Source: Sphingomonadales bacterium (lineage in GTDB: Bacteria > Pseudomonadota > Alphaproteobacteria > Sphingomonadales > Sphingomonadaceae). From it: a DNA stretch of 64,000 bases. Positions 34,150 through 58,900 of the stretch are shown here, in pieces. The notes beneath the pieces were generated by a model. The model ran no database searches. It saw nothing but the letters and a program-made list of their open reading frames with translations, and was not told the origin of the DNA. The translations under genes and the position numbers were made by a program. Position 1 is the first letter of the stretch, and every line of letters starts with the position of its first letter. Location: positions 1 to 64,000 of the forward strand of contig JAFKLT010000037.1 of assembly GCA_017309275.1 (NCBI GenBank), read 5' to 3'.

Positions 34150-36585
34150 ATGAGCGAGCCCGTCAAGGTCGCGATCATCGGTTCGGGGCCCGCGGGGCTG
34201 AGCGCGGCGTCGCGCGCGGGACAGCTCGGCCTCAGCCATGTGCTGCTGGAAAAGACGGACCATCTGTCCGACACCATCTATAAATATCAGAAGGGCAAGC
34301 GCGTCCTGGCGACGCCCGAACGGCTCGACCTGCGTTCCGACTGCCGCTTCGCCGAAGGCGCGCGCGAATATATCCTGGGCAACTGGGACGAGGATGCGGT
34401 CAACAACAAGGTCAATGTCGTCAAGCATGCCGACGTGACCGAGGTGACCGGCCAAAAGGGCGCGTTCGAAATCAAGACCGCCCGTGGCGACGTCTATCAT
34501 GCCGAGAATATCGTCCTTGCCATCGGCACGCAGGGCAACCCGAACCGCATGCGCTGCGAAGGCTATGACCTGCCGCACATCATCTATCAGGTCGACGATC
34601 CGGAAGATTTCAAGGACAAGCACATCACCGTCGTCGGATCGGGCGACGCCGGGATCGAGAATGCGCTGGGCGTGGCCGAAGAGGCGCTGGAAAACACCGT
34701 GACCATCCTCAACCGGTCAAAGGATTTCGCGCGCGCCAAGGCCAAGAACGTCTCCGACATGATGGAGGCGGGCGAGAATGGCTTCATGTCGATCCGCACC
34801 GAGACGCAGCCGAAGAAGGTCGAACCCGGCTGGCTGACGCTGGAGACGCCGACGGGCGACGAGAAGATCCAGTGCGACGTGATCGTCGCGCGCCTGGGTT
34901 CGGTCGCGCCGCGCGGTTTCGTCGAATCGATGGGGATCGAGTTCACCGGTCCCGACCGCGAAGCCTTTCCCAAGCTGTCGCCGACTTTTGAATCGACCGT
35001 CCCCGGCATCTTCGTGATCGGTGCGCTCGCGGGCTATCCGCTGATCAAGCATTGCATGAACCAGGGCTATGACGTCGTCGAGTTCCTGGGCGGCAACACC
35101 AATCTGACCCCGGCCGACGAAAAGGATCTGGCGGCGATCTTTGCCGGCCTGCCGCAGAAGAAGTCGGTTTCCGAATGGCTGGAATTCTTCCGCGAGCGCG
35201 TGCGCATCTTTGCCGACGTGTCGCCGCTGCAGATGCGCGAGTTCATGCTCGATTCGAAGGTCGCCTATTATCCCAAGGGCGAAGTGGTCTTTGAAAAGGA
35301 TGATCCGGGTTCCTCGCTTTTCGCGATCGCCGACGGCAGCGCGGTCGTCGACATCGGCGGCGGGATGACGGTGCCGATCGAACAGGGATCGATCTTTGGC
35401 GAGGTCGGCCTGATCTCCGGCCGCAAGCGCGGCGCCACGATCCGCGCGGGTGAAGACAGCATCTTCGTCGAAGTGTCGCGCACCGCGGCGCTGAAGCTGA
35501 TGGCCGCGGTTCCGGGCGCGAAGCGCGTGATCAACCGCATCTCGCTCGAACGCCAGCTTCTGCAGATTTTCAAGGGCGGACTGACGGTCGAGGACCTCCA
35601 GCCGATCGTCGAGGATCCCGCGATCGAGCGCGTCCCGGCCGGCAAGGTCGTGCTTGCCGAAGGCGACGAGGGCGACGACGTCTATGTCGTGCGTTCGGGC
35701 TCGATGGTCGTCGAGAAGGATATCGGCGGCAAGTCGATCTTTCTCCGCTATCTGCCCGCCGGCAGCTATTTCGGCGAAATGGCGGTGCTGAGCGGCGCGC
35801 CGCGCAACGCGACGGTCAAGGCGGCGGTGGCGAGCGAGGTCATCCGGCTGAAGGGGCAGCAGTTCAAGGAAATGCTGGCCAAGCGCCCGCAGGTGCGCGC
35901 CGCGACCGAAGCCGCGGTGGCCGAACGCGCGGCGATGAACAGCTTCATCGAATCGCGCAAGGCAAGCTATTCGAGCGCGGTCGATCTCTATTCGGACACC
36001 GCAGGCTTCATCATGAAGGAAGGCCTGGGCGAGGCGACCGACGCGCTGCTGATCGACGAGAATCTGTGCGTCGGGTGCGACAATTGCGAAAAGGCCTGCG
36101 CCGACAGCCACGAAGGCCTGTCGCGGCTCGACCGCGAAGCCGGCAAGACCTTTGCGCATTTGCATGTGCCGACGAGTTGCCGTCACTGCGAGCATCCGCA
36201 TTGCATGGCCGACTGTCCGCCGAACGTGATCCACCGCGGCCCGGACGGCGAAGTCTTCATGGAGCCGGGCTGCATCGGCTGCGGCAACTGCATGCGCAAC
36301 TGCCCCTATGGCGTGATCCGCATGGAGGCAGCACCGCCCGAGAAGCCGGGTCTGCTGCGCTGGTTGCTCACCGGCTTTGGACCAGGGCCGGGCGAACCGT
36401 CGCCCAAGTGGACCAAGAAAAAGCTGGGCGAGGAAAAGCCCAAGAAGATCGCGGTCAAATGCGACATGTGCAAGGGCATCGCCGGCGGACCCGCATGCGT
36501 GCGCGCTTGCCCGACCGGCGCCGCGATCCGTGTTTCGCCGGAAGAATTCCTGTCGATCGCGCGGCTTGAGGAGGATGCCGGCTGA
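34150..36585 (+). CDS. FAD oxidoreductase / dual cNMP-binding / four-cluster ferredoxin fusion
   Basis: 811-residue soluble fusion. Residues 1-320: pyridine-nucleotide-disulphide-reductase-like flavoprotein with FAD motif GSGPAGLSAA (11-20) and NAD(P) motif GSGDAG (163-168), but no CxxC redox pair. Residues about 355-470 and 475-600: two cyclic-nucleotide-binding domains, whose phosphate cassettes keep FGE (417-419; 541-543) and Arg (R427 region; R552). Residues about 635-795: four cysteine quartets (from C640, C677, C708, C771) for four [4Fe-4S] clusters, as in DmsB/HybA electron-transfer subunits. It should take electrons from NAD(P)H through FAD to Fe-S clusters in a cNMP-dependent way and pass them to the membrane protein whose gene overlaps its stop (TGATG). 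GAGGG precedes the start. The biological acceptor is unknown. Confidence 0.88.
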   Translation: MSEPVKVAIIGSGPAGLSAASRAGQLGLSHVLLEKTDHLSDTIYKYQKGKRVLATPERLDLRSDCRFAEGAREYILGNWDEDAVNNKVNVVKHADVTEVTGQKGAFEIKTARGDVYHAENIVLAIGTQGNPNRMRCEGYDLPHIIYQVDDPEDFKDKHITVVGSGDAGIENALGVAEEALENTVTILNRSKDFARAKAKNVSDMMEAGENGFMSIRTETQPKKVEPGWLTLETPTGDEKIQCDVIVARLGSVAPRGFVESMGIEFTGPDREAFPKLSPTFESTVPGIFVIGALAGYPLIKHCMNQGYDVVEFLGGNTNLTPADEKDLAAIFAGLPQKKSVSEWLEFFRERVRIFADVSPLQMREFMLDSKVAYYPKGEVVFEKDDPGSSLFAIADGSAVVDIGGGMTVPIEQGSIFGEVGLISGRKRGATIRAGEDSIFVEVSRTAALKLMAAVPGAKRVINRISLERQLLQIFKGGLTVEDLQPIVEDPAIERVPAGKVVLAEGDEGDDVYVVRSGSMVVEKDIGGKSIFLRYLPAGSYFGEMAVLSGAPRNATVKAAVASEVIRLKGQQFKEMLAKRPQVRAATEAAVAERAAMNSFIESRKASYSSAVDLYSDTAGFIMKEGLGEATDALLIDENLCVGCDNCEKACADSHEGLSRLDREAGKTFAHLHVPTSCRHCEHPHCMADCPPNVIHRGPDGEVFMEPGCIGCGNCMRNCPYGVIRMEAAPPEKPGLLRWLLTGFGPGPGEPSPKWTKKKLGEEKPKKIAVKCDMCKGIAGGPACVRACPTGAAIRVSPEEFLSIARLEEDAG

Positions 36586-37466
36586 TGGCCAGTCTCTTCC
36601 AGCGTCGTCGCAGCAAGGCGACCCAGACCGAGCGCGTCCGCGAACGGCGGCACGAGGGTTTCCTCCGCTACGCCAATTTCCGCTGGGCCAAGATTTCGGG
36701 CGGACTCTGCCTGCTGATCATCGTCAGCTATGCACTGATCGACGTGACGCCGCGGCACAATGGCGGCAGCTGGTACGGCTATACGCTGGGGACGATCGGC
36801 GCGGGCCTGATCCTGTGGCTGACGGCGCTCGGCTATCGCAAGCGCAAGATGACGAGCGATTACTGGTCGCTGAAGGCCTGGACGTCGGCGCACGTCTATC
36901 TGGGCCTCAGCCTGATCATCATCGGGACCTGGCACACCGGCTTTCAGCTCGGCTGGAATGTTCACACGCTCGCTTGGGCGCTGATGATATTGGTGATCCT
37001 GTCGGGGCTCTATGGCGTCATCGTCTATGCGACCTTGCCCGCCGCGCTGTCGAACAACCGCGACGAGATGACGCAGATGCAGATGCTCGAAGCGATCCGC
37101 GCGTTCGACCGTCAGCTTCACGCCGCCGCGCAGCCGCTGACGCCGGAGGATACCGCGCCGGTGCTGGCGGCGCTCGACGAGGATCCGTTTGCGGGCGGTA
37201 TCGGCGCGCGCCTGTCGGGTCGTTACCCCCGGTGCGCCACCGCGGCGGCGCTCCGCACGCTGGGCATGTCGCGAAGCAGCGATGCGGAGGCGCGCGAAAA
37301 GGTGATCGGCCTGCTGTCACAAAAGGAGGCGGCGCTTGCCAGGCTGCGCAAGCATCTTCGTATCCGGGCGCTGCTCGAAATCTGGCTTTATGTGCATGTG
37401 CCGCTGACCTTTGCGCTGATCGCGGCGCTGTCGGCGCACATCATCAGCGTCTTCTTCTACTGGTAA
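36585..37466 (+). CDS. Di-haem b-type cytochrome membrane subunit
   Basis: 293 residues, about five membrane helices with a cytosolic insertion at roughly 155-260. Helix 3 contains H103 and H117, and the last helix H271 and H285. Both pairs are 14 residues apart, the spacing used by cytochrome b proteins to hold two stacked haems. TWHTGF and SAHII flank the sites. It should carry electrons across the inner membrane from the Fe-S fusion protein upstream to the decahaem protein downstream; the genes overlap or lie 16 bp apart, so one operon. I do not recognise a named family; NapC/NrfD-like and ferric-reductase-like anchors are alternatives, but their motifs do not fit as well. Confidence 0.75.
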   Translation: MASLFQRRRSKATQTERVRERRHEGFLRYANFRWAKISGGLCLLIIVSYALIDVTPRHNGGSWYGYTLGTIGAGLILWLTALGYRKRKMTSDYWSLKAWTSAHVYLGLSLIIIGTWHTGFQLGWNVHTLAWALMILVILSGLYGVIVYATLPAALSNNRDEMTQMQMLEAIRAFDRQLHAAAQPLTPEDTAPVLAALDEDPFAGGIGARLSGRYPRCATAAALRTLGMSRSSDAEAREKVIGLLSQKEAALARLRKHLRIRALLEIWLYVHVPLTFALIAALSAHIISVFFYW

Positions 37467-37482
37467 GGCGGGAGAGGGGACC

Positions 37483-39417
37483 ATGAGCTTCATCCTGCGC
37501 CGAATCTCGACGACGAAGACGGGCAAGCAGATCATCCGCGACCAGGCGCTGCCCGGCGACGCGATCACGCTTGGCCGCGAGGGCAGCAACGTCATCCACA
37601 TCGCCGACCTGGCGGTGAACCCGCACCATGCGACGATCACCAGCGCCGACGGGCGTCATGTCCGCGTGCAGGCGAGCGAGGGGCTGGGTTTCGACATCAA
37701 CGGCCGCACGGTCGATGCAGCGGACGTCGACAGCGCAGCGGGGGCCGAGCTGCGCTTTGGCGGGCACCGCCTGACGATCGCACGCGAAGGCGACAATATC
37801 ATCCTGCTCGTCGAACGGATCGACGAACTGTCGCAATCGTCGAAGGACGTCGACGAAGCGAAGGCCTTTTCGCTTGCGGGCGTCATGCCCGGCAAGCGCG
37901 TGGGGGCATGGACGTTCGGCATATTGATGCTGCTCGCCTTCCTCGTCGGCCCGATCTGGGCGTGGTACAGCTACAAGAATGTCGATGAGCGGCCCGAGGG
38001 CTATCATGCCGACACGGCGTGGCTTTCCGGCCCGTTGTCGAGCGCGCACGCGAACCTCAAGAACGATTGCCAGTCGTGCCACGTCGAACCCTTCGTCGCG
38101 GTGACCGACAAGGCATGCGTCGGCTGTCACACCGGCGAGCACAAGGCGATGAGCACGGCGCATGCCAATGCGCCGGCGGCGATGCTGCTGGCCGCGCGGC
38201 ATCCGCCGGGCATAGGCGAAAAGGTGCTCGCGGGTTTCGCCAAGACCTTCAACCGGCCGCAGGGGCGCTGCGTCGACTGCCACACCGAGCATGAGGGGGC
38301 GGGGCCGATGCCCGCGACGCCGCAGAAATTCTGCGCCGACTGCCACGATGGCATGTCCGCGCGGTTGCTCGATGCCGGGTTCAAGTCGACGGTCGCCGAC
38401 GCCGCCGATTTCGGCACCAGCCACCCCGAATTCCGCCCGCTGGTCCGTGCGGCACCCGGTGCGAAGCCCGTGCGCACGACGCTGACCAAGGGAGTGGTGG
38501 ATTATAACGGGCTGAAATTCCCGCACGACATCCACCTGCAGGCGACAGGCGGCGTCGCGCGCATGGCCGCGAGTTTCCGCGGACGCTATGACTTCGGCAA
38601 CAAGCTGGAATGCGAGAATTGCCACCGCGTCGAATCTGACGGCGTGCGGGTGAAGCCGGTCGAGATGGAGCGCGACTGCGCAATGTGCCACAGCCTGGCG
38701 TTCGAGACCGTCGGCGGCGTGACGCGCACGCTGCGTCACGGCGAGCCCGACCAGGTGGTCGCCGACCTGACCGCCTATTATCGATCGACACCCCCGTCGC
38801 GCCCGCTGCAGCTTGGCGGGATGGAACGGCGGCGGCCGGGCGCCTATGCCGAGGGGCAGGTCTATAACATCTATTTCCGCGAGGTCGCGGTTCGCCCAAA
38901 CCGTGCAGAGGATGCGGTGCGCGCGGTCTTTTCGAAGGGCGGGGCCTGTTACGATTGCCATACGATCTTCGCGCCGCAGGCGGGCAAGAGCTGGCGCGTG
39001 ATGGCGGTCGACCAGACGCCGCGGTTCCTGCAGAAGGGCTGGTTCGACCATGACGCGCACAAGGAAACCGATTGCGCCGACTGTCACACCGCAGCGCCCG
39101 GCTCCAAGCAGGCGACCGATTTCCTGGTCCCCGGCGTTCGCCAGTGCCGCGATTGTCACGTGGGCGAGAGCGGGGCGCGGGTGGTAAAGGTAAAGACCGC
39201 GACCGAATCGCCTTGCGCAATGTGTCACGAATATCATTCGGATGGGGGCAAACCGTGGATGCCAGCGCGTCAGCGTAAGGTAAACGCCGCGGCAATCACA
39301 AATAAACCTCTTGGCGCTATCTATGGTGTGAGCATGGTCACAGGCTCGCAGGGGCGGGGCCTCTATGATGTGACTTGGCGCACACCCGCCCTGCACGGGG
39401 CACGGCGGGGCGGCTAG
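37483..39417 (+). CDS. FHA-like domain / transmembrane / decahaem cytochrome c fusion
   Basis: 644 residues. Residues 1-110: cytosolic FHA-like domain with LGRE (30-33) and NPHHATI (46-52); the usual phosphothreonine-contact Ser is replaced by Asn46, so phosphopeptide binding is uncertain. Residues about 142-163: one membrane helix. The rest should be periplasmic and has ten CxxCH haem motifs (from CQSCH at 196-200 to CAMCHEY near 580), plus extra His residues (FPHDIH, FDHDAH) suited as distal ligands. It resembles c3/NrfH-type multihaem carriers. The last 50 residues lack haem motifs and look unconstrained. GGAGAGGGG precedes ATG 37483. Probable terminal electron carrier of the operon; the partner in the periplasm or outer membrane is not encoded here. 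Confidence 0.85.
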   Translation: MSFILRRISTTKTGKQIIRDQALPGDAITLGREGSNVIHIADLAVNPHHATITSADGRHVRVQASEGLGFDINGRTVDAADVDSAAGAELRFGGHRLTIAREGDNIILLVERIDELSQSSKDVDEAKAFSLAGVMPGKRVGAWTFGILMLLAFLVGPIWAWYSYKNVDERPEGYHADTAWLSGPLSSAHANLKNDCQSCHVEPFVAVTDKACVGCHTGEHKAMSTAHANAPAAMLLAARHPPGIGEKVLAGFAKTFNRPQGRCVDCHTEHEGAGPMPATPQKFCADCHDGMSARLLDAGFKSTVADAADFGTSHPEFRPLVRAAPGAKPVRTTLTKGVVDYNGLKFPHDIHLQATGGVARMAASFRGRYDFGNKLECENCHRVESDGVRVKPVEMERDCAMCHSLAFETVGGVTRTLRHGEPDQVVADLTAYYRSTPPSRPLQLGGMERRRPGAYAEGQVYNIYFREVAVRPNRAEDAVRAVFSKGGACYDCHTIFAPQAGKSWRVMAVDQTPRFLQKGWFDHDAHKETDCADCHTAAPGSKQATDFLVPGVRQCRDCHVGESGARVVKVKTATESPCAMCHEYHSDGGKPWMPARQRKVNAAAITNKPLGAIYGVSMVTGSQGRGLYDVTWRTPALHGARRGG

Positions 39418-39457
39418 CTATTTGGACCGGGTCGGCCGGCGGGGAGCAGGAACGGAT

Positions 39458-40306
39458 ATGCTGATCGCGCAGATCACCGATATCCATATCGGGTTCGATC
39501 CCGACAATCCGGCGGAGTATAACCGCAAACGGCTCGATGACGTCCTCGACGTGCTTATCGAGGGGCCGAACCGTCCCGACTTGTTGCTCGCGACGGGCGA
39601 TATCACCGACCGCGGCGATCCCGACAGCTATCGGCGCTTGTCGACCGCCTTTTCGCGCTGCCCTTTCCCGGTGTGGCCCAGCGTCGGCAATCATGACCTG
39701 CGCGACAATTTCCACGCCCAATTCCCAGGCTTCGATGATGGCAACGGCTTCATCCAATATGTGATCGAACTGCCCGAACTACGGCTGGTCACCGTCGACA
39801 CGCTGGAGGAAGGGCGGCACGGCGGCGCGTTCTGCGAGCAAAGGTCGGCGTGGCTGGATGCCGAGCTGTCGAAGGATCCGACGAAGCCGACCTATATCGT
39901 GATGCACCACCCGCCGGTCGAAAGCGGCATCGAGTGGATGAACACCGATCCCAACGAACCGTGGGTCGCCGCCTTTACCGCGGTCATCCGGCGCCATCCG
40001 CAAGTGCGCGGCCTGATCTGCGGTCATCTTCACCGCAGCGTCACCGTGTCGTGGGAAGGGCGCACCGTCGCCATCTGTTCGTCGACCGCGCCGCAGGTCT
40101 CGCTCGACCTGCGCCCGATCGACGAGAACAAGCCCGACGACCGCCCGATGATCGTCGCCGAAGACCCCGCCTATGCGCTGCACCGCTGGAACGGGCGCGA
40201 ACTGGTCAGTTTCTATGACCATGCCGGCGCGCACACGATGCTCGCCAAATATGACGAGCGGCTGCAGCCGCTGGTGCGCGAATTGAAGGCCGAACGGCCG
40301 GCCTAA
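39458..40306 (+). CDS. CpdA-like cyclic-nucleotide phosphodiesterase
   Basis: 282-residue calcineurin-like metallophosphoesterase. ITDIHIG (Asp, His), ATGDITD, VGNHD, MHHPP and CGHLHR supply the dinuclear metal site in the order typical of class III cAMP phosphodiesterases (CpdA family). The start is ATG 39458 with AGGA nearby. It follows the cNMP-binding redox operon by 40 bp on the same strand, so it may switch off the signal sensed there. Hydrolysis of other phosphodiesters cannot be excluded. Converges with the dehydrogenase gene, 4 bp overlap. Confidence 0.85.
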   Translation: MLIAQITDIHIGFDPDNPAEYNRKRLDDVLDVLIEGPNRPDLLLATGDITDRGDPDSYRRLSTAFSRCPFPVWPSVGNHDLRDNFHAQFPGFDDGNGFIQYVIELPELRLVTVDTLEEGRHGGAFCEQRSAWLDAELSKDPTKPTYIVMHHPPVESGIEWMNTDPNEPWVAAFTAVIRRHPQVRGLICGHLHRSVTVSWEGRTVAICSSTAPQVSLDLRPIDENKPDDRPMIVAEDPAYALHRWNGRELVSFYDHAGAHTMLAKYDERLQPLVRELKAERPA

Positions 40307-43147: not shown

Positions 43148-46100
43148 TCAGGGCGTCTGACTGTCGGTGGTCGGGGTCCACAGGTCGTCGTTGCCCGCGC
43201 CCGTCACCGGATCGTCGAGCAAGGGCTCGCCGGTCAGCGGATCTAGGTCGCGCATGGTGATCAGCGCGGTGGGCAGCGTCGTGCCGTCGCCGCTGTCGTC
43301 GCTGTCCTCGTCCTCGATCACATCCTGAACGGGGAACATGCGGTCGATCTCGACCGACGACATGCTGCAGGAGGTGACATTGGCGATGAAGCAGCCGTTC
43401 AGCGTCGATCGCGGATCAAAGCCGAGCGAACCCGTCGCGCCGGTCGGCACCGGGCTGCCGCCGATCGTCAGCAGCGAGATCGTGTCGATCCCGGTCACCT
43501 GGCCGTTGGCGCCAAGATGGACGCCGTTCAGAACGATCCGCGACGGCCCCTCCGTCAGCACATCGAGCCCGCCGGCACCGAAGGTCAGGCCGCGGCGCTG
43601 GCCGAAATCGGTGCCCGCGCCGCTGTTCTGGACATAGACGCCGCCGACGACGTCGAACGCGATACGGCGAGCGAACAGCGCACCCTCGTCCAGTACGACG
43701 CCGTCGTTCTGGGCAAGGCGGCTGCTGATCGCATCGATCGAGGTCGCGTTGGCGACATCGGTGATCGCGGCGGTGGTTGCGACGATGATATCGTCCGATT
43801 CCATCGTGAGCACGCCGCCCGGTGCGTTGTTGGCGCCGAGCAGGCGTATCGTGCCCTGGCCCAGAATGACCTCCAGCGCATTGTCGGCGACCAGGTTCAG
43901 GGCGTTCGTGTCGGTCAGGCCGGTAAGCTGGACATTGCCGATCACGCGCATCTTGCCGGGCGTCGAGATGGTCAGCGAACCGTTCGCGCCGATGTTCGAC
44001 CCCGAACTGCCGCCCGTCATTGTGAAGGTGTCGACGACGACGTCGGGCAGCGCGCTGCCGCCCAGCGACGCCGGCTGGATCGCGCTGACTTCGGGCGCGA
44101 AGATCTGGACGTCGCGGCCGAAGATGCGCGTCAGTTCGTCGGCGTCGATATGGAAGCCGTTGCGCGTGCCGGTCCCGCCGACAAAGGTCTGGTTGTCATT
44201 GTCGTTGTTTTCGATCGACAGCGCCTGCGTCACGCCCGCGGTCCCGACGCGGCCGTTCGAGGCGATCGTGATGTCACCCGATGCCAGAGAAATATTCTGG
44301 CCGGTGACGACGCCGTTGACCAGGATCATCCCGCCCGCATCCGCATCGATATTGTTCGTCGCGGTGACGTTGGTCATCGTGATCATCTCGTTCGCGTCGA
44401 AATCGACATTCGCCGCATTGAGGCTGACGATGATCATATGTTCGCCGGTGTTGCTGAAGCGTGCCGTGCCGGCGATGCTGGCGCTGTCGACGATGAGACG
44501 GTTGTTTGATCGGATGACGGCATCGCCGACATCGGTGACGATGCTGGCGAATTCGATCGGGCCGTTGGTCCCGATGTTCAGGCTGTCTGCGATGACGCTG
44601 ACATTACCGAGCGAATTCAGGTTATTGACCTGAATGGCGCCGTCGTTGGCGGTCAATGTGGTGACGCCGCGGCTGTATAGTTGGTCGGCGGATATGCCCG
44701 TCGCGCCGGTCAGGGTCATCGAGGCGCCGTCGCCGGATTCGCCCTGGTTGATCGCGATCATGCCGTCGGCGGTCAGCGTCAGGTCGCCCCCGGCTGTGAG
44801 CGCGCCGCCGGTGATGTCGTTGGCCGAAGTGATCGCGATGCTGCCGCCGGCGGCGATCGTGTCGAACACCTGGCTGCTCACGACGATGTCGGCGATCGTC
44901 ACGTCGTTGGCGTCGATCGTGACGTCGCGGCCCGCATCGACCGTGCCCGCGATATTTGCCGTGCCGGTCGAGTTGACCACGACGTCGGAAAAGGCGTCGA
45001 GGTTCGCCAGCGTCGTGTCGCCGCCGGTGGTGCGGATGCTGCTGTCGCCGCCGGTCGTTCCGAAGCCGAGCGTCGTTGCGCCGTTGACGCCGATCGTTCC
45101 GTTCGCGCTCAACAGGATGTCATCGCCCGCCGAGAGGCCGGTGGCGTCGATCGAGCCGGCCGAAGAGGTCAGCGTCAGGTCGGATCCGTTGATGGCGGAG
45201 TTGCCTTCGCCCTGCGAGATCGTGAAGCCGCTTGCCGGCAGATAGCTGAGGATATGGGTGTCGGGCCCCGAACCGGTCGTGCGCACGTTCGTCGCGGTTA
45301 TGTTGCCGACGGCCCGAACGTCGAGATCGTCGCCGACCGAGACGTTGGCGAGCGTCGCCGTGCCCTGCGACAGGATCAACATATCCTCGCCGACGGCCGC
45401 GCCGTCGATATCGACCGATCCGCCCGCGTTCACGCCGAACATGCCCGTTGCCTGGCTGTTCGTCATGATGATGTCGCCCCCGGCGGTCGCGTACACGCTG
45501 GCCGTGGTGGGGAAGCCGCTGCTGCTGCTGCTGCCGTTGCCGATGGCGGCGGCGCTGGCGATGATGTCGCCGCCCGCGCTGAGGAAGATATCCTCGCCGC
45601 CGGCATAACTGCCGGTAATGTCGCCCTGCGCCTGGACGCCGATACCGAACCTGGCCGTCGCCTGATCGATGGCGACATTGCCGCCGCTAGCGGTCGCCGA
45701 CAGGAAGCCGTCGGAGTCGACGAGGTCGATATCGATGCTGTTGCCGCTGAGGAAGACGCTGCTTCCCGAGTTTATCGCTGCGCCGCGAATACCCTCGGCA
45801 CCGGTGGCGGTGCCGTTTGCGGTGAGGTCGACGAAGAAGCCCGCATTGATGTTGTTGAAGACGATCGACTGGCCGTCGACCCGGACATATCCGCCCGCTG
45901 TCGAATTGCCGAGGTCCACGGCGCCGACCGAGGTGATGTCGATGTCGCCGCCGGTGATGATCGAATTGAGCCCGGTCCGGAAGCTGCCGACATTGGCGGT
46001 GAAGTCGTTGACCGCCTCGGAATGTTCGACGCTGACGCTGCCGCCGGCCGTTATGCTGATGTCGGTACCGTCGAGCCGGTCGACTGCAATGCGGCCGGTC

Positions 46101-49100
46101 GGCGTCGTCGTCGCGAGCGTCAGCGTGTTGCCGGCGCCGAGCAGCGAGCCCTGTCCGCCGACGATGCTGTTCGCGGCCGAAATCGACAGGTTGCCCGTCG
46201 CATAAAGCGTCGGGTTCGCTGCGTCGCCGCGCATGTCATGCCGCAGGTGGACCTGGTCGCCTGCTTCGATGGTCAGGTTGCCGCCGGCGTTCACACGTCC
46301 GCTGCCTTGCATATAGGCGCCGACCGAGCTGCCCGTCCGCAGCGTCATGTCGCCGGTCGCGCGGATCGTGCCGCCATTGGCGCTGAGGAAAATGCCGGCG
46401 GGCTGCACGTCGATGTCGTTGTTCGTCGCGAAGGCGAAGCCGAAGGCGTCGGCCGCCAGGCTGGCCATCGTGATGTTGCCCTGCGCAAACATGTCGATCC
46501 GGCCGGCAAGTCCGCCGTTCGCCTGGATGACCGTATCGCCCAGCAGAATGCTGCCCGTGCCGCCGGACGTCGTAAGCGCCTGGAAAACAACGCGTCCGCC
46601 GGTGTCGATGAAGCGGGTGCAGCAGTTGCCGGCGCCGGCAAGTCCGCTGCCGCCATCGCCGCCATTGCCCGAAACGCCGCTGACCGCGATGTTGACCGGG
46701 GCGCCGTTCGACGTGATCGTGCCGCCGTTGGCGATCAGCGAGACGATACCGCCGGTGCCGCCGCCGCCGATGCCGCCGTTACCGCCGCGAAGGCCCTGGG
46801 TCACGTCGTCCGGGGTGCCGGGGATGCCGTCGGGGCCGGGCAGGGTGATCGTACCCGGATTGTCGGCGCCGCGACCGCCGGTGCCGCCCGTGCCGATGCT
46901 GTTGAAGGTGCCGCCGCTGCTGGAGACTTCGCCGAGGCCGACCGTCGCGCCGTTGGTCGCGACGATCTCTATCTCGCCGCCGATGCCGTCGCCGCCGTTG
47001 CCGCCGCTGCCGCCGACCGCGGGACGGGAGAAGAAGTCGGTGTAGGCCGTGCCGCCGTTGCCGCCGGTGCCGCCGGTTTCGAAGTTCGATTGCGAGACGC
47101 GGATCGATGCGTTCGGTCCGATCGCTTCGATCCGCGAGCGTCCGCCTTGTGCAAGGCCGCCGCCGCCGGCATCGCCATCGAAGCCGTCGCCGCCATTGCC
47201 GCCGAATGCGCTGGTGTCGAGTATCAGCGCGAGCGAGCCGGCATCATAATCGTTGACGATCGCCTGAGCCACGCCACCGAATGCATTGCCGCCGTTTCCA
47301 CCGACGGAGCCGGAACCGCCGTTGCCGCCGCTGGCGCCCGATCGGCTGCCCAGGCTTTCGCTGACGTTGAGCAGCGTGCCGCCGAGGTTCACCGTCGCAG
47401 TGCCACCCTGGCCGTTGCCGCCGCTGCCGCCGACCCCCGCGCCGGTCGAGAAGCCCGAGCTGCTCGAAACCAGGATGCTGCCGCCGCGACCGCCGAAGCC
47501 GCCCGCATCGGCGAAGGCGGCGTCGGTGTCGAGTTCGCCCGCGATGAGGTTGATCGTCGCCGTGCCGCCGGTTCCCGTACCGCCGATTCCGCCGGTGCCC
47601 GGCGTGCCGTTGAAGCTGAAGAAATTGCCGCCAACGCCGCCGTTGCCGCTGGCATAAGCGGCAAGAACGGCCGTATCGACGACCGCGTCGCCATCGATGT
47701 TGATCGTGGCGGTGCCGCCCTGGCCATTGCCCGCGCTGCCCGGCGTCAGGGGATTGGCGGAATCGAAGTCGTCGCCGTTGAAGCCGTCACCACCGATGCC
47801 GCTTGCCGACACGCTGACGTCGGATCCGGTGAAGGTGCCGCCCTGCAGCGTCAGCGTCGCGGTGCCGCCGAAGCCATCGCCGGACTGCGTCATCGCAAAG
47901 CCGCCATAGCCGTTGGCGCTGATCGACAGGTCGCCGACCTGCACCGCGCCGCCGATCTGGGTGAAGGTCGCGGTGCCGCCGCGGCCGGTCGTTCCGCGTC
48001 CGATGCCGCCGGTGCCGTCGGCCGACAGGTTCATCGGGCCAAAGGCCGTGAAGCCACCGCCATTCGCCTCGACCGTGATGGTGCCGCCCTGGCCGTCGCC
48101 AGCGGGTTCGAATTCGTTGCCGGCGCCTTCGACGAAGGCCTGGGTCAGGCCGTCGGCTTCCGCGTTGAGGCTGCCGAAGCTGATCTGGCTGCTTGAATCG
48201 AAGCCGGTTCGGATGATGATGTTGCCGCCGGTCCCGATCGGAATGGCCGCGTTGGGACCCAATGCGCCGCCCGAGACGCCGCTGGCTTGGATATCGGGAT
48301 TCGCAAGGGCGATGCTGCCTTCGTTCGCGAAAATGGTGATGTCGCCACCGTTCGCCGAGCTGCCCGTGTTGCTGTAGCCCGTCTGAGCACTGACGCTGAA
48401 GAAGTCGATTCCGTCGCTGGTCGATTCGATCAGGCCGCCGTTGAGCGAGGTCAGCGTGATCCGGCCACCGCGCGCGGCGCCGTTGGTGCCCACGACATTG
48501 GCGACGCCGCCGCGCGCATCGACGCTGTAATTGGCGGCGCTGATCGTTCCGCTGAGGTCGGCAAGGAAATCGACGTTACCGCCGGTTCCGGTGCCCGCGG
48601 ACTGGGGCAGGCCCGCAGCGAAGCTGCCGCCGAAGACATTCACCGAAAGCACGTCGTTGATGGTGATCGCCGAACCGCCGGTCGCGGTGATCGCGACGTT
48701 CCCTCCGGCGCCGCTACCGCTATTCTCTCCATTCGACGTGTTGCCGCTGGCGTCGATGAAGACGGCGTTGCCCACCTGGAGCGTCGATCCGCCCTGTACC
48801 GTGACATCGACGTTGCCGCCGATGCCATTGCCCGAGCGTCCCGTCAGCCCGGTCGGACTCGTCGCGCTGCCGCCATCGGCGCGGGCGTTGATACCGAGCC
48901 CCGTAAGCTGGACATTCGCGCCGCCATCAATCGAGACATTCGCCGTGCCGGCCTCTGCGTCGCCGGCGGTCGTGTTTTCCGCATTGCCCGCGCCGCCACC
49001 GGCCGCGACGACATTCAGCCCGACGTCGCCCAGGCTGAGCGACGTGCTCGCGTTGGTGTTGATCAGCAGTTCGGCGGTGCCGCCGGTCCCGTCACCGCCA

Positions 49101-51019: not shown

Positions 51020-51049
51020 GGCAAGGGTCCTCGATGCAAAAGTCATGGG

Positions 51050-52867
51050 TCAGCGCGCCTTCACGCCGAATTGGGTAGTGAACGACACCAGAAAGCGGGG
51101 GTCGGGTTTCTGGGCCAGGAAGCCGCCCTTGTTGAGCGGGGCCGCAACGGTCAGGTCGAGCCGCGCGACGTCGCCATAGGCGACGCGCAGGCCGCCGCCC
51201 GCCGAATAGAGTTTCTGCGGATTGATGCCGTTGAACGCCGTATCCTTGTTCCACACCCACGCGGCATCGAAGAAGACGAAGGGCTGGACCGCGAATGCCT
51301 TGGTATTGGCGGGAACGAACGAGCCATAACGCGCCTCGACCGCGACGCCGACGCCGCTGTCGCCGATGATCGTGCCGGGGTCGAAACCGCGTCCGACCGT
51401 GAAGTTGCCGCCCGAAAATTCTTCATAGGCGACGAGCAGATCGCTGGCCCATTGTGCGCGCGGCGCGACGGCGAGGGTGAACAGCTTGTGCGGCCGCCAT
51501 TCCGCCTGCGCCTGCGCGCGGACAAGGAAGGCGTCGGGCTTGGCCTCGATGCGGGTCAGCGGGACCGCGCCGGGCAGGAAGCAGCTTGCGCCGCCCGGGC
51601 CGCAATCGTCGCTGGCGCCAAGGAAGTTCACGCCCTGACGCGCCTCGATCGAGGTCGCGATGCCCCAGCGGGGTTCGGACGGGCTGTACCCGCCCTTGCC
51701 CGCGACTGAGGCCGGGTCGACCCAGCTTGCATCGGCGCGCAGGTTGAAGACGCGGATGCGGTCGCGGTTCAGCGGCACGCCGCCAAGCTTGATATCCTGG
51801 TCGATGATGTCGAGCCCGCCTCCTACCGTCAGGCGCCGCGCCTGGGTCAGAACCAGCGGATAAGAGGCGAACAGGCTGACGATCTGGGTGTTCGACTTGA
51901 CCGGAAAATTGGCAATGTCGGGCCGCGTCCAGGCATAGGTATAGCTGGCGCCGAGCCGCAGCCCTTCGCCGCCCACGCGAACCTCATGCGCGAGTTGCAG
52001 CACATTCTGCTCGTCGAAATCGGGGGTCGAATAGAAGCTGGCGGTCGTCAGGTCGCCCATGCCGGTCAGCCCCGCAAAGCGAACCCGCGCGACCCCGCCC
52101 CAACGGCCGACATCCTTCGACCCGAAGTTCTGGATGTTGGTGTCGAGGAGGAGGGGGGTTTGGGTTATGGTTATTTCGCCAACGACCTCTCCTGGAACCG
52201 CGCCGGGGCGGAGCGTCAGGCGGGCGTCCATGCCGGGAATGTCCCGCGCGAGAAGGAGATAGCGTTCGGCGTCGACGATGTTGAACACCGGCTGGTCATC
52301 GAGCCGCGAGAGGTAGCGTTGCAAAAGTCGTTCGTTTGCACCCGCATTGCCGCGCACTTCGATGCGAGTCATGCGCGCCGAGAGGATTTCGAGCTGGACG
52401 ACGCCGTCGCTGCCGATCGTCTGCGGCGGGACGCGGACGGCGGCGAGATAGCCCTTTGCGCGCAGCATGGTCGCCGCGCGGTCGCGAATGTCGCAGACGA
52501 CCGAGATCGGCAGGTCCTGGCCGACCTTGTCCGACCAGCTGGCGGTCAGCATCGACGTGTCGATCCCCTCGACCGGGGTGAACCGGACGTCGCGGACGGT
52601 CACGCGGACATTGGCGAATTCGGGATTGGCGAGCGGGCAGGGCGCGCGTTCGATGCTATCGTCAGCGGTGACCACCTGTTCGCCGGGCGGGCTGGCGGGC
52701 GGCAGATTCGGGCGCTGGATTTCCTCGCGGGTCGGAACGACCTGGGCCTGGGCGACGGCGGAGAGCGACAGGGCGGCGAGTCCGACCGAGCAGCCAAGCG
52801 TCGTACGGATCGCCACTCGCGTGCGCGCCGCGCAACCGATAGCGTCGAAAAACCCCATCTTGATCAT
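51050..52867 (-). CDS. TpsB/FhaC-family outer-membrane transporter
   Basis: 605-residue two-partner-secretion pore. A signal peptide ends at SAVAQAQ, followed by a Pro-rich segment, two POTRA-like domains (VRVTVRDVRFTPVEGIDTSML... and ARMTRIEVRGNAGANE) and a 16-strand barrel. GNFTVGRGFDPGTIIGDSG is the conserved L6-loop VRGF-type motif. The last residues (FTTQFGVKAR) end the barrel. ATG 52867 is preferred (AAGGGG upstream); the frame runs on upstream to 52960. It should export the TpsA-like protein encoded 30 bp downstream. Confidence 0.9.
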   Translation of the reverse strand: MIKMGFFDAIGCAARTRVAIRTTLGCSVGLAALSLSAVAQAQVVPTREEIQRPNLPPASPPGEQVVTADDSIERAPCPLANPEFANVRVTVRDVRFTPVEGIDTSMLTASWSDKVGQDLPISVVCDIRDRAATMLRAKGYLAAVRVPPQTIGSDGVVQLEILSARMTRIEVRGNAGANERLLQRYLSRLDDQPVFNIVDAERYLLLARDIPGMDARLTLRPGAVPGEVVGEITITQTPLLLDTNIQNFGSKDVGRWGGVARVRFAGLTGMGDLTTASFYSTPDFDEQNVLQLAHEVRVGGEGLRLGASYTYAWTRPDIANFPVKSNTQIVSLFASYPLVLTQARRLTVGGGLDIIDQDIKLGGVPLNRDRIRVFNLRADASWVDPASVAGKGGYSPSEPRWGIATSIEARQGVNFLGASDDCGPGGASCFLPGAVPLTRIEAKPDAFLVRAQAQAEWRPHKLFTLAVAPRAQWASDLLVAYEEFSGGNFTVGRGFDPGTIIGDSGVGVAVEARYGSFVPANTKAFAVQPFVFFDAAWVWNKDTAFNGINPQKLYSAGGGLRVAYGDVARLDLTVAAPLNKGGFLAQKPDPRFLVSFTTQFGVKAR

Positions 52868-53001
52868 TACCACCCCTTGTGTACGCGCACGTCCGCAACC
52901 GCTGACGCACAAAAAATCCGGTGCCCGCCGCTGGTCCGGCGATGCGAATTTTCGACCCAAGGAAAGGAGCTACCGCTTTCTTGCGGCAGCTTTTCTTACA
53001 A

Positions 53002-53066: not shown

Positions 53067-53825
53067 TTAGCCACCACTTGTTTCAGCTTCGGACATCGAC
53101 TCGGCCAGACGGTTGATCTGCGCCGTGCAGCCCTTTGCCATCAGCATGTCGACCGACCCCTCGACCGTGTCCGGGATCGCGCCCATTTCGGTGAAGCGAA
53201 CGGTGATCGGACCGGCCAGGCCCGCGCCCGAAAGCCGGTAGTCTACGCCATATTGCAGGGCCAGCGTGTCGGTCGGCCATTTGCGGAAGTTCGCGCCGTC
53301 GGGAATGTCGGCATAGGCGCTTTTCGAACCCTGATCGATGCGCAGGATCTCCTTGCTCTCCATGTCAGGGCGCCACAGCATCAGCGTCGCGGGATTGGCG
53401 ACGCAGAAGGTGCCGCCTTCGCGATAGTCGAGCAGCCAGATGTTCGGCGCGCGCGCGTCGACCGGCAGGTCGCCGGGGCCGCGGGTGGCCCCGCCGCGGG
53501 GACGCATCGGGCTGGGCGAGAGCATCCGCGTAACGGTGGCACCCATCGTGTTGCTGGCCTGGATCGTACCGGTCGCGCCAAAGGTGCCGGGCCCCGACAG
53601 CGTGCGGGTCTTGCCCGCCTGCATCAGGATCACACGGTCGCCGGCCGCCAAGGTGAGCTTGTCGGTCGACTTCAGCTTGGTGCCGGTCGGATATTTGCTG
53701 GCCGACGGTCCGGTTGAACGAACCACCATGGATTGGGCGGCGGCGGTTCCGGTTACGGCGATCGCCATGACGGCAGCGGCGGCGGTCAGGCTGATGCGGC
53801 GCATCGAGATATCAGGAAAGGACAT
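53067..53825 (-). CDS. Exported FecR-like protein of the CHAT/cyclase/TPS cluster
   Basis: About 252 residues with a signal peptide (RRISLTAAAAVMAIAVTGTAAAQ). The next part, YPTGTKLKSTDKLTLAAGDRVILMQAGKTRTLSGPGTF, resembles the beta-rich FecR or prc-barrel-like repeat in which a glycine turn follows LxxGDxV. The C-terminal half is unrecognised and has Cys at about 138 and near the end. Start ATG 53825 with GGAG upstream, overlapping the cyclase gene by 14 bp. It may link the envelope sensor parts to the secreted part, but this is only suggested by position. Confidence 0.65.
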   Translation of the reverse strand: MSFPDISMRRISLTAAAAVMAIAVTGTAAAQSMVVRSTGPSASKYPTGTKLKSTDKLTLAAGDRVILMQAGKTRTLSGPGTFGATGTIQASNTMGATVTRMLSPSPMRPRGGATRGPGDLPVDARAPNIWLLDYREGGTFCVANPATLMLWRPDMESKEILRIDQGSKSAYADIPDGANFRKWPTDTLALQYGVDYRLSGAGLAGPITVRFTEMGAIPDTVEGSVDMLMAKGCTAQINRLAESMSEAETSGG

Positions 53826-55899
53826 AGCTTTCTCCACTTTCGGTCTCGTTCAGTCGTTCTATCAGAAACATTATGGATGGTTCCTGACTGAATTCTTTGC
53901 CCAGCGCTGTGGCGCAGGTCACATAGGCCTTTTTATCGCCTGATGCGTGCACGGCGACAAGGTCCGCGACCCGCGCGCGCTGTTCGGGCGAGAGGTCGGG
54001 GCGCGGCGTCAGGACGTCGACCGGCTGCGCGCGGCCGCGCAGCGTGACGCGGCCCATCTGGACCAGGTCGTCGCGCTCGGCACGGGCGGCCGCCTCGGCC
54101 GAAATCAGGACGCCGGTCTTGAGGCTCTTGTTCGCCGATTCCAGGCGCGAGGCGGTGTTCATGCTGTCGCCGAGCGCGGTATATTGAATGCGATCCTCGC
54201 CGCCGAAATTGCCGACGATCGCATCGCCGACATGCAGGCCGACGCGCGTCATGCCCAGCGGCGGTACATCCTCGCCGGCCAGATCGACCCGGAACTTCTC
54301 GCCGGCTTCGTACATGGCGAGTGCGGCGGCGGCGGCCTGCGGGCCGTCGTTCGGCCGGCTGAGCGGCGCGCCCCAAAAGGCGACGACCGCGTCGCCGACG
54401 AATTTGTCGATCGTCCCGCCATGTTCGAGCACGACGTCGGACAGACGGTCGAGATATTCGTTGAGCAGGCGCGCGACGGTTTCCGGCGTCGTCGCATGGC
54501 TGAGCTTCGTGAACCCCTCCAGGTCGGTGAAGACGCAGAAGATGTTGCGCCGTTCGCCGTGGAGCGAAAGCTGGTCGGGATCGCGCATGATCTGCGCGGC
54601 GACGTCGGCGGGCAGATATTTGCCGAGCGCCGACTGGGCAAAGGCGCGCTGGCGCGACCCGACCGTGCGCGCCGCGGTGCCCACCGCCGCATAGCCGAGC
54701 AGCCAGCCGAGCGCCCATCCGAACGCCGGAAGCGTCGTCGTGTCGACGCCATGCCCCTGCAGCCAGAAGGGGAAGGCGACGAAGAAGGCCATCTGGCCGA
54801 GAAAGGCGACCGCGACCCAGCGCGCGCGCATGTCGACCAGGCTGGTCAGCCCGCCCGCCAGCACGACGAGCGCGGCGAGCAGCCACAGCGACGGACCGGG
54901 AAGCTTGGTCGACCAATCCTTGTCGAGCTGCTGCGCCAGCATATTGGCGTGCACTTCCAGCCCGATCATCGTTTCATGCTGGCCGGTGATCGCGTCGACG
55001 AAGCGGCTGAGCGGCGTATTGAACTGGTCGGTGTCGATGATGTCGCCGCCGATCAGGACATAGCGGTCCTTGATCAGGTCGGCGAAGCCCGCGCGCATTT
55101 CCGCATCCATCGGCACCGCGAAGGTATCGATCGGAATATTGGCGAACACGGGTTCCTCCTGTCCCTTCGCCGCGCGGGCGGGGAGCAGGAAACGGATATT
55201 GCCCTGATAGGCGGCGTGCGCGGGATCGACCGGCGCCATCGCATTGGCCATCAGCGGCGGCAGATTCTTGGGCCGGTCGGGCCAGCTTCGGATCACGCTA
55301 TCGGAATCGGTGCTGAAGCGGACCGAGGTCGGCTTCGTCTTGGCCGTCGTCACCTCGGCCAGATAGGATTCCAGATATTTCTGCTGTTCGAAGAAGATGG
55401 TGTTCGGATTGCTCGCCTGTTCGACATAGGCGAGCCAGGTCGGCGTCTGCATCGCGCGCAACTGCGCCTTCAGCAGGTCGTCGTCGGGACGCGGCGAGTC
55501 GAGCAGAATATCGATCCCGATCGCCTTTGCCCCCATCTGGTCGAGGTTGGCGAGCGCATTGGTCAGCAGCGTGCGGTCCAGCGGCGAGCGGATGCCGGTA
55601 TTGAACAGCGTTTCGTCGTTATAGGTGATCATGATGATGCGCTTGTCCTGTCCGACATGCGGCGCCATCACCATCGCGCGTGCGTCGTAGAGCGCGCGTT
55701 CGGCATCGCCGACGAGCGGCATCTGCCAGCTGAAACGTGCGATCAGCGTCGCGACGATCAGGAACAGGATCGTCGCGGCCATGCGCGACGGCCCAAGCTG
55801 CATCACCAGCCGGCGCAACCGCTTGCGCAGCGGAACGGCGGCGGGCCGCCCGTCGGACGTCGCGGTGTCCGGCGCGATATCGATTGCCTTCGTCGCCAT
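53812..55899 (-). CDS. CHASE2-domain class III adenylate cyclase
   Basis: About 695 residues: N-terminal helix (ILFLIVATLIARFSW), periplasmic CHASE2 sensor (DAERALYDARAMV..., IGIDILLDSPRPDDDL, DRYVLIGGDIIDTDQF), a block of about three membrane helices, and a cytosolic class III cyclase domain. FTDLEGFTKLS and KFVGDAVVAFWG give the two metal Asp residues, and NTASRLE the Asn and Arg of catalysis. Lys in IDKFVGD and Asp in ALGDSMN are the residues expected for ATP rather than GTP, so cAMP is the predicted product. Start ATG 55899 lies four bases after the CHAT gene stop; an upstream ATG at 55980 would add an Arg-rich stretch. Confidence 0.9.
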   Translation of the reverse strand: MATKAIDIAPDTATSDGRPAAVPLRKRLRRLVMQLGPSRMAATILFLIVATLIARFSWQMPLVGDAERALYDARAMVMAPHVGQDKRIIMITYNDETLFNTGIRSPLDRTLLTNALANLDQMGAKAIGIDILLDSPRPDDDLLKAQLRAMQTPTWLAYVEQASNPNTIFFEQQKYLESYLAEVTTAKTKPTSVRFSTDSDSVIRSWPDRPKNLPPLMANAMAPVDPAHAAYQGNIRFLLPARAAKGQEEPVFANIPIDTFAVPMDAEMRAGFADLIKDRYVLIGGDIIDTDQFNTPLSRFVDAITGQHETMIGLEVHANMLAQQLDKDWSTKLPGPSLWLLAALVVLAGGLTSLVDMRARWVAVAFLGQMAFFVAFPFWLQGHGVDTTTLPAFGWALGWLLGYAAVGTAARTVGSRQRAFAQSALGKYLPADVAAQIMRDPDQLSLHGERRNIFCVFTDLEGFTKLSHATTPETVARLLNEYLDRLSDVVLEHGGTIDKFVGDAVVAFWGAPLSRPNDGPQAAAAALAMYEAGEKFRVDLAGEDVPPLGMTRVGLHVGDAIVGNFGGEDRIQYTALGDSMNTASRLESANKSLKTGVLISAEAAARAERDDLVQMGRVTLRGRAQPVDVLTPRPDLSPEQRARVADLVAVHASGDKKAYVTCATALGKEFSQEPSIMFLIERLNETESGESYVLS

Positions 55900-55903
55900 C
55901 AGA

Positions 55904-58900
55904 TCAGCGAGCCGCGCGGCCTGCTGTCTCTCCGGTTTGCGCGGTCGCGGTCGCGCCATGCAGCAGCGCCTGGCCGCCATCGCCGATGATCGCGAAGCCC
56001 GCCCAATAATATGGATGCGACGTCTGCTTTTCGTCCATCAGCTTGGTCTGCGTCGCCCACAGCGCGTCGGCGATGCTTTCCCCCTGCCGGGCCTCGAACA
56101 GCCCGCCGATCAGGCGCGTGGTCGCGTCGAAATCGTCGGGCGCCGGCCAGTGGCTGGCGATGACCGAACGGCCGCCCGCGCCGATGAAGCTGCGCACCAG
56201 CCCGTCGAGCGCATTGCCGCCGCCGCTGGCGACGCCGGCTTCGCGCGTTGCGGCGACCGAGGCTGCGCCGGCGGTGTCGCAGGCCGACAGGATGACCAGA
56301 TCGGCGTTGATCTTGAGGTCGAAGATTTCCTGGAAGGTCAGCAGACCGTCCGAATCCTGATCGCCGAACGAGGTGACGAGGGCCGGGCGGGCCGGGCACG
56401 ACGGGCGCGGCGCGGTGACCAGGCCGTGGGTCGCGAAATGGATGATGCGATAGTCGGACAGGTCGGTCCGATTCTTGACCGCCGTGTCGGTGAACGCCCC
56501 GCCGGTCAGCAGCGTCGCCGCGTCGCGGTTCATCGTGCGGCTGGCGGTGACCAGTTCGTCGGCGGAGATCGGACGGCTCCACTGGCTGACGTCCCAGTGG
56601 CAATTGCCATCGACGCCGCCGGTAACGGCGCCGCGCGTGCCGGTCGACGGCAGGACGCCGCCGACGACGGGCAGGTTCTGGCCCAGGCCGAAATATTCGC
56701 GGGTTCCGGTCGACGGCGCCGTCTGGCGCGCGTTGCGGAACGACAGTGCCGACACTGCGGTGCTCGGCCGCGTCGCCCGGCCGAGCCAGGCGATGTTGCG
56801 CATGTCGAAGGCGTCGGCATTCGGATCGGTGATCCGCTGCTCATATTCGGCGAGCCCCGCGTCCGAGGTGATCAGCAGGTTGATCGGCAGACGCAGCATC
56901 GCGCCGTCGGGTTCGAAGATCAGGTGCGGCACCGACGGCAGGCGGTCGGCGACGGGGGCGAAAAGCTGCGTATAGAGTTTGCGCGCGGTCGCGGCGTCGA
57001 AGGGATAGGTGACGCGGCGGCCGTTCTCGACGATCGAGATGGTCGACCGGATGCTGTCGACCGCATTTTCAAGGCCCTGGTTGCTGACGTCGGCGCGCCA
57101 GAGCTGCGCATCCTTGTTGCCGATCAACATGCCGTACACCGAATCGCCGACGACGAGCATCTTCAGATAGGCCTCGTCGGGTTTTAGCACCTGCTGCAGT
57201 TCGGCGAGGTCGAGCTTGCCCGGCGCAACGACGCGATATTGCGGATAGGCTGACAGCTTCACCACGGTTTCGGACTGCTGGAACGACAGATTGTCGAGCT
57301 GGGTCTTGAGGTCGGCGCGCAGCGCGTTGACTTCGGGCGAAACGGGAAGCTGCGCCAGGCGGGCATCCTCGATCCGCGCGCGTTCGATGTCGCGATTGAG
57401 CGTCGTCGCCTGGCGGAAGAGGCGCGCGCCATCGTCGCTGCCCGCCGACAGTTCGCGTGCCAGCACCGCCTGCGTATCGGCGACGCCGGGGCGAACCTGA
57501 AGCTGGCTGGCGACGAAGAAGTCGCTCACCGCCGACGGATCGGTCGCGGCGCGGCTGGCGAGCAGCCGGTAATAGGGCGCCATCATGTTCGCCATGCCGG
57601 TGGTCGAACGCTGCGACCCCGCGAGCGCGGTCACGACATCGCGGTAGATGCCGAGTGCCTTGTCGTCCTGGCCATGCCGCGTGAGAAAGGCGGCGTAGCG
57701 CGCACGGGCCGAGGCGAGGGCATTGGTTTCGGGATATTCGACCGCAAGCGCGTTGATCGATTCCTGGAAGCGCGCGTCGGCGGAGGCGGTGTCGCCAAGC
57801 GCTTCTTCGGCAAGCGCCAGTTCGCCGAGCATCTGCGACCGCAGGCGGACGATCGAGGTGACGCGGCCTTCGCGGACCGCCAGCGCATCGCCGAGCCCCT
57901 TGATCTGGGCCGCCTTCGCCGCCTGGGGATTGCCGCGCAGCCGTTCGACCGTACCGAGCAGATGGACCGCCTGCGCGTCGATGATCTGCGCGCGCTCGAG
58001 CGGGGTCAGCCGTTCGCGATCGCCGGTCTGGCGTACCGCGCGGGCGCTGCTGCCGCTGTTGACGCCGGCGACGATCTCCGGCGTCAGCGTGACCGCGCCT
58101 TGCTCGATCGTCACGGCGTTGGTCAGCGGCGGGATCGGCGTCTGCAGCAGCGCCGCCGCGCCGTCATAGTCGCGCTGGTTGAGCGCGTGGATGGCGCGGA
58201 AATTGCGGCGCAGGCGAAGCTGGACCGGATCGCTGGTGGGGATCGCCTCGACCTCTGCGAACAGGCGCTCGGCCTCGGCGAATTCGCCCAGGTTCGAACG
58301 TTGCAGCGCGCGGTTCAGCGTGAATTCGGTGGGATCGAGGTCGGCTGCGGCCTGTTCCTCGACCGCGCGGCGCGACAGTGCCTCGAAAAACTCGGCGGCC
58401 TCGGCATAGTCGCCGCTGTGGTTGCGGCGATATCCCTCGGCCAGCGCCTTGTCGACGTCGATGGTGCCGGCGAGGGTGCGGGCGAAACCGTCGTTGCCGC
58501 CGACCGATGTCGTCGCGACCTTGATCTGTCCGGGCACGACCTTGCGCTGGCGGATCGATTCGAGCGCGATGTTGAGCGCGTCATTATAAGCGGTGAAGCC
58601 CTCGACCGCATAAGCGGTGTTGCCGTCGACCTCGATTCGCGTCGTCCAGCCGATATTGCCGTCCTTGACCGTGCACGCGTCGGGGGCGGTGCAGACGATC
58701 GTGCCGCTGCGCCCCTGGTCGATCCGCGCGCGCGCATCGGCCGCGTCGGCGCGAAGCATGCGGACATAGCCGACCGGCTGGCTCGCGTCGCGGCAGACGA
58801 TCAGCCACGCGCGGTCGAACATGCCCTTGATCACGGAATCGCGAACGGTCGCCTGCACCTCGCACAGCGAGCCGCCCTGATCGCCGATCGAAAAACTGTT

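Follow-up and report, generated by a model that had tools for sequence, protein, structure and literature searches.

Does a cyclic nucleotide switch a bacterial electron conduit by binding directly to one of its redox proteins? The question is raised by four consecutive genes, here termed A to D, in a 64,000-nucleotide stretch of DNA (the window) from a Sphingomonadales bacterium (GenBank assembly GCA_017309275.1, contig JAFKLT010000037.1, positions 1 to 64,000 of the forward strand). A sequence-only reading had claimed a four-gene run at 34150..40306, and all four genes were found at that place on the same (+) strand, spaced by -1 (a 1-base overlap), 16, and 40 bases. The product of A has 95% identity to that of Sphingopyxis sp. 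H050, and the nearest named relatives place the window genome in Sphingopyxis. On balance, our sequence comparisons lead us to favor, with moderate confidence, the interpretation that the products of this operon form an electron conduit through the inner membrane, of the type termed PCC4, in which a built-in cyclic nucleotide sensor switches or tunes the flow. The conduit half of this interpretation is an already published prediction; the new part is the proposed built-in sensor, together with a cyclase and a phosphodiesterase that appear to be co-inherited with it. The features are listed by window coordinates and strand (CNB, cyclic nucleotide binding; FHA, forkhead associated).

34150..36585, +: gene A, 811 aa; flavoprotein, two CNB domains, four [4Fe-4S] clusters
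34150..35109, +: A residues 1-320; YpdA/thioredoxin-reductase-like FAD and NAD(P) part, YpdA cysteine absent (Ala15)
35245..35559, +: A residues 366-470, CNB-A; pocket Glu418 and Arg427, 39/39 homologs
35590..35949, +: A residues 481-600, CNB-B; pocket Glu543 and Arg552, 39/39 homologs
36046..36534, +: A residues 633-795; four [4Fe-4S] clusters, HycB/NrfC-like
36585..37466, +: gene B, 293 aa; five-helix membrane protein, two hemes b proposed at H103/H117 and H271/H285
37483..39417, +: gene C, 644 aa; FHA-like domain, one membrane helix, ten hemes c
37483..37818, +: C residues 1-112; FHA-like domain, presumably on the cytoplasmic side
37903..37971, +: C residues 141-163; membrane helix (range read off the sequence)
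38008..39282, +: C residues 176-600; ten CxxCH motifs and ten other conserved His put forward as distal ligands
39458..40306, +: gene D, 282 aa; class III (metallo) phosphodiesterase
53812..55980, -: CHASE2 class III adenylate/guanylate cyclase, the proposed messenger source

Cofactor ligands and nucleotide pockets are conserved in A, B, and C

The claimed fusion of a flavoprotein, two cyclic nucleotide-binding domains, and four [4Fe-4S] clusters in A was borne out by Pfam matches to Pyr_redox_3 (E 1.4e-31), cNMP_binding in two stretches (E 3.7e-34), and several Fer4 models; PF13247 also matched (E 7.6e-10). When 39 homologs with identity down to 42% were aligned, the FAD motif and all 16 Fe-S cysteines were invariant (39/39). 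The phosphate-binding cassette of CNB domains is marked by a Glu and an Arg, and the pocket residues E418, R427, E543, and R552 were likewise present in 39/39 homologs. Most of CNB-B has drifted, with G517, G542, E543, and R552 being its only invariant positions (residues 471-600). The flavoprotein part has the fold of YpdA, which is marked by an active-site Cys in its FAD motif. At the equivalent position, residue 15, the homologs carry Ala (24), Gly (12), or Cys (3), and the window protein carries Ala. A thus differs from the bacillithiol disulfide reductase YpdA (Bdr) in lacking the active-site Cys, in being fused to CNB and Fe-S parts, and in scoring below the cut-off of the curated family (128 versus 340 bits).

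The predicted structure of B (pLDDT 87) has long helices at residues 33-51, 63-86, 96-118, 126-159, and 234-292 and five membrane helices. Two pairs of histidines 14 residues apart had been proposed, and these pairs (HX13H; H103/H117 and H271/H285) sit on helices 3 and 5 of the model and are invariant in 33/33 homologs, as are W99, H127, G141, G144, and W267. S140, the first residue of an SGXXG motif (S140-G141-G144), is kept in 90% or more of the 33 homologs.

Gene C carries the ten CxxCH motifs and the one hydrophobic segment ascribed to it, and a script found a single such segment in 17/17 orthologs. Among the 299 stop-to-stop frames of at least 100 aa in the window, ten CxxCH motifs occur in one, a single motif occurs in one, and none occurs in 297, so the ten-motif frame is not a chance product. 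Across 37 homologs with identity down to 22%, each of the ten heme motifs keeps its two Cys and its His without exception (37/37). Two loci, L178 and L179 (L and G numbers are our handles for loci and genomes), have nine strict CxxCH motifs in C, so one heme motif there has another spacing. Ten further His are kept, nine in 37/37 homologs and H229 in 36/37. Since this number provides one distal ligand per heme and fits ten bis-His hemes, we infer that the hemes of C are bis-His coordinated and pair with these residues.

The FHA-like domain ascribed to C matches only weakly in the window protein (E 0.007, 17.2 bits versus a Pfam cut-off of 20.7), whereas at E 0.01 the FHA model matches 15/18 orthologs of C and the FHA-like Yop-YscD model 16/18; in the wider locus set, FHA matches C in 114/122 loci. 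The FHA residues G31 and R32 are invariant in the 37 homologs. FHA domains use a Ser to bind phosphothreonine, and this position is Asn in the window and Ser in only 4/37 homologs, which makes a phospho-switch at the FHA-like domain of C doubtful.

The product of D matches Metallophos (E 3e-17) and contains the motifs DxH, GD, GNHD, H, and GHxH, which are the metal motifs of SpdA/CpdA phosphodiesterases. Among curated families SpdA is nearest (138 bits, cut-off 400), followed by CpdA (79 bits, cut-off 225). D is a metallophosphodiesterase, but the earlier designation "CpdA-like" is loose, given that SpdA is nearer and both scores fall below their cut-offs. TTG at 39422 was considered as the start of D; ATG at 39458 is likelier.

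The A-B-C gene order is conserved beyond the window's family

Within the order, a strong B match (E < 1e-80) was found in 75/296 genomes including that of the window, all of them in the window's family, and 17 more genomes had weak matches. Named carriers of the conduit include Sphingopyxis, Novosphingobium, and Sphingomonas. In the class, a match to A spanning the CNB and Fe-S parts occurred in 36/385 genomes (partial in G319 and G676), and three further genomes matched the flavoprotein part only. At the level of the phylum, B was found in 15/398 genomes, five of which lie outside the class.

Contig ends truncated A in three of the 135 loci that we collected, leaving 132 A genes for scoring. 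B directly follows A in 125/129 loci with room for it. The four loci without an adjacent B were considered as cases of A existing without B, yet all four genomes carry B elsewhere. C comes next in 122/122 loci with room, and three more were cut. D follows in 83/87 loci of a first set (L050-L176, mostly Sphingomonadaceae) and in 0/29 of a second set (L177-L214), with six cut. In G718 and G823, A and B form a single frame of 1118 and 1123 aa, respectively. The conservation of cofactor ligands, gene order, and A-B fusion across Alphaproteobacteria and beyond argues for the conduit proposed from the sequence.

A, B, and C resemble the inner-membrane module of PCC4

PCC4 is a putative porin-cytochrome conduit (PCC) comprising an inner-membrane protein, an Fe-S gene, and a 10-heme cytochrome (He et al. 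2017, PMC5566968). The motifs given there for both the PCC3 and the PCC4 membrane protein are two copies of WX3HX13H (helices 3 and 5) and one SGXXG (helix 4). B has five membrane helices, as does the PCC4 protein, and carries all of these motifs, as W99-H103-H117, S140-G141-G144, and W267-H271-H285. In subgroup II of the published clusters, a pfam13247 Fe-S gene lies upstream of the membrane protein, and A carries PF13247. The Fe-S and membrane genes are annotated as one in one PCC4 genome, much as A and B are fused in G718 and G823.

In its number of heme motifs C agrees with the 10-heme cytochrome of PCC4, and the full set of 4-, 5-, and 10-heme cytochromes occurs together in the relatives L195, L196, and L197. 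Because this set corresponds to the PCC4 description, we place A-B-C as the probable inner-membrane module of a PCC4-type conduit. Behind the operon, second-set loci often encode an HbpS-like protein, then a predicted porin and an LVIVD multiheme protein (MHC-LVIVD), or else the operon is accompanied by 4-heme and 5-heme cytochromes; "predicted porin" is our own reading of a 619-aa barrel-like protein without a Pfam match. In contrast, the window lacks 4- and 5-heme genes (CxxCH occurs more than once in just 1/299 frames), and a porin was not seen next to its operon, though the window was not scanned with a porin model. A phosphodiesterase has also been added in the window's family. The flavoprotein, cyclic nucleotide, and FHA parts are not named in the available main text of He et al. 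The claim that no characterized system has this make-up consequently needs qualification: PCC4 is a published prediction, but that main text, as available, mentions neither cyclic nucleotides nor FHA.

PCC3 appears to be a sister system. A related flavoprotein is encoded in L065-L068, L070-L074, and L076, with the Fe-S part shown in L066 and L070, and the B profile matches the membrane protein of L066 (hhalign probability 98.5, E 1.9e-15). Their assignment to PCC3 (described in PMC5566968 and PMC10734462) is our own reading. No CNB or FHA domain was seen in these loci, and their cytochromes have many more heme motifs. L070 (G006, a genome of the window's genus) is a second, PCC3-like cluster without CNB or FHA, in which a large multiheme cytochrome is encoded together with an Fe-S flavoprotein and a five-helix-like membrane frame; in L071 (G014, also of this genus), such a cluster is indicated by the flavoprotein match only.

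Other systems resemble single parts of the operon. A survey of Gallionellaceae (PMC10734462) lists, under "Other," a cluster 403 annotated "Forkhead-associated protein" with 10 heme motifs in 27/87 iron oxidizers, a name used a single time in that paper; its description is the same as that of gene C, and on this description it is probably the C family. ATII-TrxR (PMC6544261) likewise joins a CNB domain to a pyridine-nucleotide flavoprotein, although its single CNB domain is N-terminal, it has the redox-centre cysteines of thioredoxin reductase, and no Fe-S or cytochrome part is named in the portion of the paper available. The electrode conduits of Geobacter (PMC5585712) also tie a second messenger to extracellular electron transfer, but their messenger is a cyclic dinucleotide that, as described there, acts via a sensory network rather than through a domain inside a redox protein. 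Among the literature matches listed (open-licence PMC papers, supplements excluded), none linked cyclic nucleotide domains to these clusters.

A cyclase, D, and MHC-LVIVD are co-inherited with the conduit

The CHASE2 cyclase of the window has catalytic motifs that look intact; it lies 13.5 kb beyond D and adjoins a two-partner secretion pair. Elsewhere the linkage is closer: in G127, G176, and G207 no more than 1.6 kb separate D from a cyclase, and in G217 a CHASE2 cyclase lies ~1.4 kb upstream of A.

Co-inheritance was scored in the window's family using 30 B-positive genomes, hand-picked from the 75 strong matches to span genera, and 20 listed B-negative genomes; 184 further negatives of the order lie outside the sample. 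A class III cyclase was present in 30/30 carriers versus 2/20 non-carriers, as was the D family (Fisher P = 1e-11 for each), and MHC-LVIVD was present in 30/30 versus 0/20 (P = 2e-14), with ancestry ignored in all three tests. The control, cytochrome bd, showed no link (21/30 versus 12/20; P = 0.55). The states of cyclase and D agreed in 50/50 genomes. Both exceptions among the negatives are the same genomes, G125 and G134, and possibly point to a different role for the circuit or to A-B-C having been lost recently. In the six genera containing both states, all three genes occurred in 11/11 positives, while 0/12 negatives had the cyclase, D, or MHC-LVIVD.

A cyclase was also found in 16/16 carriers from other families or classes (carriers only were sampled) and in 15/16 same-genus genomes, the cyclase-less G015 also lacking A. 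Inheritance of the gene set with enzymes that make and break the nucleotide suggests that the signal switches the putative electron wire. Together with the invariant pockets, the co-inheritance of cyclase and phosphodiesterase in the window's family provides indirect support for cyclic nucleotide control of the conduit.

Six patterns representing CRP, FNR, and similar boxes each occurred in 0 or 1 of 112 regions upstream of A, so these consensus boxes gave no indication that cAMP or FNR regulates transcription here.

A model for a nucleotide-gated conduit and its alternatives

We envisage that A docks onto B from the cytoplasmic side and that its FAD and four [4Fe-4S] clusters mediate electron exchange with NAD(P)H. 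B would move electrons across the membrane on its two hemes b, and C, anchored by one helix, would receive them into the periplasm on ten bis-His hemes. Other cytochromes could then take over the electrons, which would also cross the outer membrane in cells that have a porin. The CHASE2 cyclase would produce cAMP or cGMP, which D would break down, and nucleotide bound to the tandem CNB domains, which lie between the flavin and Fe-S parts, would switch or tune electron flow. We favor an outward direction of flow, which, like the final acceptor, we infer.

We also propose, more tentatively, that this is a dedicated circuit in much of Sphingomonadaceae, in which the CHASE2 cyclase acts as the on signal, D as the off signal, and the tandem CNB domains as the receiver gating a trans-envelope conduit at the protein level. 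The conduit may even be the chief target of the nucleotide, since 18/20 of the sampled conduit-less genomes lack both the class III cyclase and D. Messenger control of electron export is otherwise seen mainly as acting through gene expression and sensory networks. If the model is correct, a redox protein with its own cyclic nucleotide receiver would let a respiratory or extracellular electron pathway be switched quickly and reversibly, the widespread, unstudied PCC4-type cytochromes would gain a regulator and an electron partner, NAD(P)H, and the cyclase, phosphodiesterase, A-B-C, and MHC-LVIVD would form a testable genetic set.

Several findings weigh against the model, those that bear on a particular alternative being given with it below. 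A fold search with B was uninformative. The co-inheritance statistics disregard the tree except in the genus-matched contrast. In Sideroxydans, both PCC3 clusters are reported as down-regulated with Fe(II), which leaves an extracellular role of this sister system unproven.

The alternative that survives best, and which we regard as a real if lesser possibility, is that in Sphingopyxis the electrons go no farther than the periplasm, where they would supply a soluble reductase or a detoxification enzyme instead of being exported. Among L097-L116, 20 loci of Sphingopyxis or near-Sphingopyxis origin, no predicted porin gene was found near the operon (flanks of up to 8 kb, some shorter), and He et al. 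(PMC5566968) consider an extracellular role less likely for clusters that have such membrane proteins but no porin. The window genome (G000) also has no MHC-LVIVD match, perhaps owing to a loss or an assembly gap. However, MHC-LVIVD is present in 30/30 other carriers of the family, among conduit-bearing Sphingopyxis relatives in 14/14, and 16/38 loci of the second set have a predicted porin in its vicinity.

We consider it unlikely that the conduit is real and its CNB domains do not gate it, with the nucleotide serving assembly or stability only and the cyclase and D acting on another target. CNB domains do occur in non-signaling proteins (a family 2B encapsulin is among the database matches), and the PCC3-like relatives, to judge from their sequences, function without them. 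The window cyclase sits with secretion genes and may serve the secretion pair instead. Furthermore, cyclases occur without the conduit not only in G125 and G134 but also in two (G028 and G033) of ten genomes from other families of the order, none of the ten having the CNB architecture of A, so the link between cyclase and conduit does not hold everywhere. Against these points, the pocket Glu and Arg have stayed invariant even as most of CNB-B drifted, and within the family the cyclase and D are nearly absent where the conduit is absent.

Similarly unlikely, in our view by a slight margin the least likely, is flow in the reverse direction: a donor in the periplasm or outside the cell would pass electrons to C, which would hand them on by way of B to quinone or NAD(P)+, and the nucleotide would tune this uptake. 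In favor of this reading, flavoproteins with such a fold are able to work in both directions. He et al. (PMC5566968) modeled PCC4 in this way, as a donor to the quinone pool in iron oxidizers. Against it, the named carriers Sphingopyxis, Novosphingobium, and Sphingomonas are aerobic heterotrophs.

Neighboring genes

The MHC-LVIVD frames span ~1320-1475 aa, and 13/14 of the long frames printed have ten CxxCH motifs. In L176, the gene lies at 14013-18431 (-), and Pfam identifies the LVIVD repeat there. A search for LVIVD together with multiheme gave no match in the open-licence PMC literature. Upstream of A in, for example, L159, L165, L167, and L172, there are frames that we read from their sequence as cytochrome c maturation-like (CcmF-like and CcmH/TPR-like).

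The window cyclase belongs to a row at 43148-55980 (-) that also comprises a 256-aa frame (FecR-like by our own reading), a ShlB/FhaC transporter, and a 2632-aa exoprotein-like frame; the 256-aa and 2632-aa frames have no Pfam match. The same order of cyclase, 256-aa frame, ShlB, and exoprotein was seen again in L228, L231, L233, L237, and L238. Farther along the window, a BlaR1-type M56 peptidase gene lies at 60974-62674 (+).

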